This document shows, piece by piece, positions 16,246 to 51,916 of a stretch of 64,000 nucleotides of DNA. Where the stretch lies: assembly GCF_021390675.1 (NCBI RefSeq), contig NZ_JAJEJV010000004.1, forward strand, positions 496,001 to 560,000, written 5' to 3'. The position numbers and the translations under genes are program-made. The notes under the pieces were generated by a model. That model worked only from the letters and a program-made list of their open reading frames with translations, did not search any database and was not told the DNA's origin. The DNA comes from Dyella sp. 2HG41-7 (GTDB taxonomy: Bacteria; Pseudomonadota; Gammaproteobacteria; Xanthomonadales; Rhodanobacteraceae). Position 1 is the stretch's first letter; every line of letters begins with the position of its first letter.

Positions 16246-16574
16246 TGGTGGGCCCACCAGGATTCGAACCTGGAACCAAGGGATTCGCGTGTTCCGAAAG
16301 TTTCCTTTCGGCGCGGACTATCTCTTCACCCTCCGACGTTGCGACACGTGCGGGTGGGGTGCGGGACGCTCGAGCCTGTTATGAAGGACGCTGAAGTCCT
16401 CAGGTAGTCTCTGCACCGTCCGACGGTGTACCGCCGGCTTGGCTCAGGGTTGCCATCGATCCGCGCGAACGCGTCGCTAAGGTTTCCCTGAATTCATCCC
16501 GTTCCCGTTCGCGCATTACTACGCGACGGCACCTTTCGATGAGTCCCCTGCTCTAACCGTTGAGCTATAGGCCC
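16246..16574 (-). tRNA. tRNA-Ile(CAU) interrupted by a group I intron
   Basis: The exons are 16539-16574 (36 nt, 5' half) and 16246-16285 (40 nt, 3' half including encoded CCA). Joined, they give a normal 76-nt cloverleaf: acceptor GGGCCTA/TGGGCCC, D arm GCTC/GAGC, anticodon arm GGGGA-CTCATAA-TCCCT, T arm CCAGG-TTCGAAT-CCTGG. The anticodon is CAT. The sequence resembles E. coli tRNA-Ile2 (TAAT after the anticodon, CTTGGT variable region, D loop ACGGTTA) rather than either methionine tRNA. C34 would be converted to lysidine by TilS to read AUA. The intron lies between anticodon base 36 and base 37. A scanner that allows only short introns would miss this gene or call two fragments. Confidence 0.93.
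16286..16538 (-). ncRNA. Self-splicing group I intron (IC3-like) in the anticodon loop
   Basis: 253 nt on the minus strand, from CGAAAGGTGCCG to a terminal G. P1: exon CAU pairs with intron GUG (last exon U with G as a wobble), and C1 pairs with G6 around a GAAA tetraloop. Core elements resemble the Azoarcus tRNA-Ile intron: AAUUCAGGGAAACCUUAGCG (P/Q region), GAUGGCAACCCUGAGCCAAG (P6/P3 side), GUGCAGAGACUA and AGAUAGUCC, which pair GACUA/UAGUC as P7 with the guanosine site. P9 is CCGAAAG-GAAA-CUUUCGG. The last base is G, as required. It is about 50 nt longer than the Azoarcus intron, mainly between the two P7 strands. It has no ORF and therefore no homing endonuclease. Confidence 0.92.
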
Positions 16575-17433: not shown

Positions 17434-19299
<1,866 letters not shown>

Positions 19300-19462
19300 A
19301 CCAACCGCCGCGGGATAGGAACCAATCAGTATAGCGATGTGATGCTTTTTTGACCAGTTTTCAAGTGAAAAATTCAGGCACGCCAACACGCAAAAATCGC
19401 GCCAAATCGCGGTTTTCAGCGTGGGTGTGAGTGTTCGAACAAGAGGCCAGTTGCTGTGGCAC

Positions 19463-51839: not shown

Positions 51840-51916
51840 GGCTATGTAGCTCAGCCGGTTAGAGCACAGCACTCATAATGCTGGGGTCGGTGGTTCGAGT
51901 CCACCCATAGCCACCA
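51840..51916 (+). tRNA. tRNA-Met (CAT, elongator)
   Basis: A 77-nt cloverleaf: acceptor GGCTATG/CATAGCC, D arm GCTC/GAGC with loop AGCCGGTTA, anticodon stem CAGCA/TGCTG with loop CTCATAA, T arm GGTGG/CCACC and encoded CCA. It closely follows E. coli elongator tRNA-Met (same TAGCTCAG, AGAGCAC and CTCATAATG). The normal C1-G72-like acceptor rules out initiator tRNA. Confidence 0.95.

Follow-up and report, generated by a model that had tools for sequence, protein, structure and literature searches.

The much-studied group I ribozyme of Azoarcus sp. BH72, an IC3 intron of pre-tRNA-Ile(CAU), is inserted at the same site of the same tRNA as the intron described here, between nucleotides 36 and 37. 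The tRNA-Ile intron of Azoarcus is mentioned as known in a review of the field (PMC3984707), and several Acidovorax and Burkholderia carry a group I intron in tRNA-Ile2 which had been overlooked by tRNA finders (tRNAscan-SE 2.0 paper, PMC8450103); these differ from the present intron in the genus of the host and resemble it in being group I introns of tRNA-Ile2. The list of tRNA group I introns given in a 2014 review comprises cyanobacteria, alpha- and betaproteobacteria, with gammaproteobacteria not among them (PMC4033280), and among the open-access papers listed in our searches there was no report of a tRNA-Ile(CAU) intron in Dyella or its family. Two further types are relevant for comparison. 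The IA2 intron of T4 td is described as similar to two IC3 tRNA ribozymes apart from the P7.1/7.2 extension between P7 and P3 (PMC4498298), and the IC3 introns of tRNA-Leu, of the cyanobacterial and plastid kind, also represent a self-splicing type residing at the anticodon, though in a different tRNA and at a different site.

The window analysed here, i.e., the whole stretch of 64,000 nucleotides from Dyella sp. 2HG41-7, contains a tRNA-Ile(CAU) gene at positions 16246-16574 of the minus strand, interrupted after U36 by a group I intron of 253 nt. The coordinates coincide exactly with those suggested earlier from the letters alone (hereinafter the original prediction), where the host was taken for a probable xanthomonad; this is correct at the order level, the window belonging to the Dyella group. 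The gene and its neighbour are composed as follows.

16539..16574, minus strand: 5′ exon, tRNA-Ile(CAU) nucleotides 1-36 with the anticodon CAU as its last bases (36 nt; same sequence in the uninterrupted genes of G001, G008 and G015).
16286..16538, minus strand: group I intron, 253 nt, without homing endonuclease (Rfam match to RF00028, structure from 53 sequences, ORF reading).
16246..16285, minus strand: 3′ exon, tRNA-Ile(CAU) nucleotides 37-76 with encoded CCA (40 nt; exon joining).
17434..19389, minus strand: rpoD, next to the tRNA gene on its upstream side and marker of the conserved locus (named from our sequence reading and database matches).

The Rfam search proposed along with the prediction returned a group I match: Intron_gpI (RF00028) covers positions 16551-16294 of the minus strand over the whole model (1-253) with 71.7 bits (E 3.2e-16 over the window), the gathering score being 50 bits. 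Joined exons make up 76 nt, folded by ARAGORN as a CAT tRNA (labelled “Met” by this program), while the unspliced gene is overlooked at default settings and, with introns allowed, a wrong tRNA-Arg is proposed. In three members of the genus (G001, G008 and G015) an uninterrupted tRNA downstream of rpoD is identical to the joined exons of the window over all 76 nt, which fixes the insertion point between nucleotides 36 and 37; both the predicted joined sequence and the predicted site are thereby borne out. The intron obeys the usual boundary rule, a U before the intron and a G at its end (PMC11915505). Seven ORFs of at least 20 aa touch the intron, the longest of which (79 aa) extends beyond it, and no homing endonuclease was found among the seven, in agreement with what had been expected.

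Secondary structure was drawn from the window sequence and evaluated on 53 aligned introns out of 77 collected, each taken with 7 nt of the 5′ exon and 6 nt of the 3′ exon. It consists of the following elements.

16530..16541, minus strand: P1, exon C34 A35 U36 plus intron C against intron GGUG, with a GAAA loop and a U.G pair marking the 5′ splice site (4/4 pairs in 53/53 sequences).
16505..16529, minus strand: P2 hairpin with a GNRA loop, GUAA (both-side changes in 10/10 pairs, 82% of cells paired).
16362..16501, minus strand: P3, strands 16495-16501 and 16362-16368 (7 pairs, 100% of cells paired).
16415..16491, minus strand: P4-P5-P6-P6a domain (P4 and P6 100%, P6a 99.7%, P5 92% of cells paired).
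16316..16409, minus strand: P7, guanosine-binding helix, strands 16405-16409 and 16316-16320 (5 pairs, invariant in 53/53).
16375..16404, minus strand: P7.1-like two-tier hairpin in the P7-P3 interval (9 pairs, 100% of cells paired, 53/53).
16327..16361, minus strand: P8 (alignment structure).
16286..16315, minus strand: P9.0 (4 pairs) and P9 with GAAA loop (16294-16311), terminal G (P9.0 98%, P9 93% of cells paired).

Across the 53 sequences 96.2% of 3995 cells are paired, against 34-42% when pairing partners are displaced by 1 to 3 columns, and both-side changes occur in 34 of the 76 pairs, a level reached by none of 500 shuffles. P1, P3, P4, P6 and P7 are paired in every sequence; covariation is seen in P5, P6a, P9.0 and P9, with the inner region of P5 being irregular and the outer pairs of P2 broken in about half of the sequences. 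P3 and P7 form the pseudoknotted core together with P4-P6 and P8, and the elements noticed at the outset (P1 with a GAAA loop, P7 strands GACUA/UAGUC, P9 with GAAA and a last base G) are all present, P1 being formed by exon CAU and an intron C against GGUG. The insert lies in the anticodon loop, a location shared by protein-spliced introns (PMC4033280), and might therefore be reconciled with an archaeal-type tRNA intron removed by proteins, but all group I helices are present, with covariation, and the Rfam match spans the whole model, which makes this explanation almost negligible.

The element which sets this ribozyme apart is the hairpin between P7 and P3. It has compensatory changes in two of its nine pairs among the 53 sequences and is present in 77/77 collected introns of the 36/37 site (50 from the family, 23 from other members of the class and four named records), the collection script having required its first bases, while all 50 family introns and 18 of the 23 class introns had been gathered earlier without that condition. 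No 36/37 intron among the places given to the script was dropped, the Vibrio locus L117 being left out. This locus (L117:5978-6560, Vibrio sp. 10N.286.49.B1) harbors two adjacent tRNA-Ile2 genes, the first of which is apparently broken after the anticodon arm and the second contains a group I intron (98.9 bits) with a long P7-P3 stretch of different sequence in unaligned comparison.

The analogy with Azoarcus drawn in the original prediction is justified as regards the tRNA, the guide GUG, the GNRA loop of P2, small size and the overall core, though not as identity with its IC3 intron: the Azoarcus intron passes from P7 directly to P3 with no hairpin and is 205 nt long (197 printed and 8 missing) versus 253 nt in the window (PMC8890501). 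Identical residues occupy 106 of 186 aligned columns, the printed Azoarcus sequence containing some N (PMC8890501). With respect to subgroup, the intron has no P5abc extension, P5 being a simple stem by inspection, as in IC3, and carries a P7-P3 extension of nine pairs in 53 sequences, which IC3 introns lack; strict membership in IC3 was rejected on the basis of this conserved hairpin. An extension in the same interval is found in IA2 introns (T4 td and IStrons), but there it consists of two hairpins, P7.1 and P7.2, with P9.1/P9.2 additionally present in IStrons, as described for these introns (PMC4498298, PMC4227781), whereas the window intron has one hairpin and a simple P9. With its single hairpin between P7 and P3, the intron therefore matches the description of neither IC3 nor IA2. 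The hairpin is absent from four fully read tRNA-Leu introns of relatives (L178, L215, L221 and L223). Group I introns of tRNA-Ile2 are thus known already and the new element is the structural variant with an extra hairpin, the degree of surprise being moderate.

The genome comprises 4.26 Mb in four contigs and is 99.99% complete. Rfam detects 46 tRNAs in it, the split gene not being among them, and all their anticodons were read. CAT occurs in only two, one at window position 51840 and one elsewhere, which by our own typing are of the elongator and initiator types, respectively; UAT is found in none of the 46, nor is there a second tRNA-Ile(CAU) among them. The pattern of the intact junction, with up to two mismatches allowed, has zero matches across this genome, so that the gene appears as the sole copy, as had been supposed. 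A pseudogene accompanied by an intact copy elsewhere was considered and rejected, the genome-wide search having found no such copy. The assignment to Ile2 follows from the sequence type and from the fact that the elongator and initiator types are already represented by the two other CAT tRNAs of the genome. The joined exons make a 76-nt cloverleaf that has the CAU anticodon and differs from either Met tRNA, and tilS is present in the genome (167 bits, a 580-aa frame). Since there is no second tRNA-Ile(CAU) among the 46 and tilS is present, reading of AUA most likely depends on splicing of the intron, the splicing itself being presumed. A scan for sigma-70-type promoters upstream of the split gene gave zero matches, and the lack of a consensus promoter might indicate that the gene is dead and AUA is read by another tRNA. 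This we regard as very improbable: no other CAT isoleucine tRNA and no UAT anticodon is available among the 46, core helices are kept in 53/53 sequences, and AUA is in use, since in 44 ORFs of the window, selected heuristically, it makes up 26 of 783 isoleucine codons; rpoD, counted separately, has one.

The reading that we consider highly probable is that the only tRNA-Ile(CAU) gene found is interrupted by a group I ribozyme, and that the spliced tRNA, after receiving lysidine from TilS, reads AUA, the intron being old, mainly inherited and lost several times. The anticodon CAU would serve as the substrate strand of P1, paired with intron GGUG so that U36.G stands at the splice site. Free guanosine bound in P7 would attack after U36, and the freed U36 would then attack after the last G of the intron, giving a ligated tRNA with the loop CUCAUAA. 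In this tRNA C34 would be converted by TilS to lysidine, allowing it to carry isoleucine and to read AUA. The intron itself encodes no mobility function of its own. From what is established about group I introns and TilS we infer that the RNA would splice itself, that splicing would precede the action of TilS and that growth would depend on it.

The occurrence of the intron in this genome is real, as predicted, but it is not isolated. RF00028 matches were obtained in 11 of 16 genomes of the genus and in at least 54 of 233 genomes of the family, the latter being a lower bound imposed by stricter filters. All 56 intron places of the family were read, 50 of them in tRNA-Ile(CAU) and six in tRNA-Leu, so that 50/233 genomes carry the tRNA-Ile(CAU) intron. 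Together with a later find, group I introns of tRNA-Leu are noticed in seven places of the family (L172, L178, L179, L180, L181, L182 and L285), and L178 and L285, both fully read, have no P7-P3 hairpin. In a sample of the class, 56 of 369 genomes have RF00028 matches; inspection of the context of all 70 places revealed 25 cases of tRNA-Ile(CAU) split at 36/37 in 24 genomes, including the window and L277, which was read at the 3′ end only. Across the phylum, the hairpin motif of this intron lineage was encountered in one of 398 sampled genomes, the window's own. The class survey also gave two genes resembling tRNA-Ile(CAU) in which the break follows U33 and not U36 (L279:401-596, minus strand, in G278, and L230:501-734, minus strand, in G264); their introns are of group I (29.1 and 57.2 bits, respectively) without the P7-P3 hairpin, and their joined exons fold as CAT tRNAs.

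Intact counterparts were traced with the same junction pattern, matched by 162 of 233 family genomes. An intact tRNA-Ile2 gene was found in none of the 50 carriers, two of which match the pattern falsely, through a 3′ fragment not recognized as a tRNA by ARAGORN (G038) and through a CTCTTAA loop (G132); among the matches listed, the non-carriers G127, G135 and G136 do so through a CTCTTAA-type loop only. The fragment in G038 (L192, G038:C8:244195) is a 3′ part of tRNA-Ile2 with uninterrupted anticodon loop located 1 kb from the split gene, perhaps representing the other end of an inserted element. The family thus divides into at most 157 genomes with the intact form (loops judged among the matches listed), 50 intron carriers and 26 in which neither form was found. 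Of the last group, 12 are at least 90% complete and one is a single contig; a repeated search of all 26 with laxer filters and two more patterns yielded no tRNA-Ile2 exon or junction and one weak tRNA-Leu intron (L285). G034, G036, G187, G232 and G017 are near-complete genomes of the family having neither intact nor split tRNA-Ile(CAU) by the patterns used. In view of these 26 genomes, dependence on the tRNA-Ile(CAU) gene need not be a rule for the family, and some relatives may read AUA another way. Within the genus, the intron-free G013 has an intact gene far from rpoD, and G014 (86% complete) has neither form.

The gene usually resides next to rpoD. Among loci with sufficiently long flanks, no more than 1500 nt separate the split gene from the C-end of rpoD at 17/18 in the class, 17/21 in the family and 10/11 in the genus, the match at L140 (a 30% paralogue) not being counted; at the eleventh locus of the genus the distance is about 2 kb. 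Among 80 rpoD loci surveyed, 47 have the 5′ exon of tRNA-Ile2 in the flank examined. Carriers beside rpoD include Dyella mobilis, Lysobacter daejeonensis, Luteimonas aestuarii and two further gammaproteobacterial assemblies, and intact genes beside rpoD are found in Luteimonas marina, Xanthomonas and Stenotrophomonas. In the tree of 77 introns, where bootstrap is not settled and many inner branches are unsupported, the genus introns fall into a single clade (100/99), a further split (100/99) sets the family introns, joined by those of Lysobacter and Luteimonas, apart from the remaining 25 of the class, and 12 group labels require 14 changes versus 47.3 when shuffled. Since the intron tree follows genus and family, the simplest reading suggests an old resident of the rpoD-linked gene, transmitted mainly by descent with several clean losses. 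On the rpoD tree of the genus, the presence of the intron needs three changes, two of them forced by well-supported branches, so that some transfer among near relatives may have taken place.

Patchy presence (11/16 in the genus) and the occurrence in viral contig L262 of a related intron sharing the hairpin motif would also be compatible with recent arrival of a mobile intron through a phage or plasmid in place of inheritance. We consider this unlikely, though by no means negligible, because the intron encodes no endonuclease, clusters by genus and family and keeps the same rpoD-linked place across the class, while plasmid records have no match to the split gene and no match in phage records exceeds 30% of the query. 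The phage records gave seven matches, six to the 36-nt 5′ exon only and one to a 99-nt stretch at 72.7%; all being partial, phage carriage of the window intron was rejected, as was carriage by plasmids.

Viral contigs nevertheless contain introns of their own. In L262:9185-11250 (IMGVR_UViG_3300030098_003770) five group I introns are packed into approximately 2.1 kb of a phage gene; one of its ORFs matches SU10-type major capsid protein, and the first intron shares its hairpin motif with the tRNA-Ile introns. A group I intron of 76.9 bits was noticed at L264:9587-9887, minus strand, of a 146.8 kb viral contig, inside an apparent phage tRNA-Leu gene; all phage introns known by 2014 are described in one review as residing in protein genes (PMC3984707). 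The first 300 bases of viral contigs L260, L261 and L263 start inside a Dyella-type intron and continue into the 3′ exon; in L260 a tyrosine integrase comes next (482-1723), an arrangement resembling that of an integrative element with its attachment site in the 3′ exon of the split tRNA. Group I introns with a hairpin-like P7-P3 stretch, as judged by eye, were seen in apparent tRNA-Thr(UGU) and tRNA-Lys(CUU), four and one, respectively (L197, L199, L202, L205 and L208). Group I introns in the apparent T-loop of tmRNA genes (L266, L268, L269, L278 and L280) belong to a known kind (PMC11915505).

A wider proposal, to which we give somewhat less than even credence, is that these introns represent an undescribed subgroup of gammaproteobacterial tRNA group I introns with a two-tier P7.1-like hairpin, which may have occupied the rpoD-linked tRNA-Ile(CAU) since early in the class, passing mainly by descent with frequent clean loss and having relatives in tRNA-Thr(UGU), tRNA-Lys(CUU) and phage genes. 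If true, introns of the window type and of the Azoarcus type would be structurally different ribozymes occupying one and the same bond of this tRNA, and in a further two genomes (L279 and L230) hairpin-less introns would have inserted three nucleotides closer to the 5′ end.

The extra hairpin offers a second small tRNA ribozyme for comparison with the Azoarcus one, and the split gene is overlooked by the tRNA finder used in this analysis. For this bacterium, it appears that every AUA codon is read by means of a tRNA which first has to be released by an RNA enzyme. Since close relatives with and without the intron exist at one locus, its gain, loss and cost become directly testable for a catalytic intron in a single-copy and probably essential tRNA.
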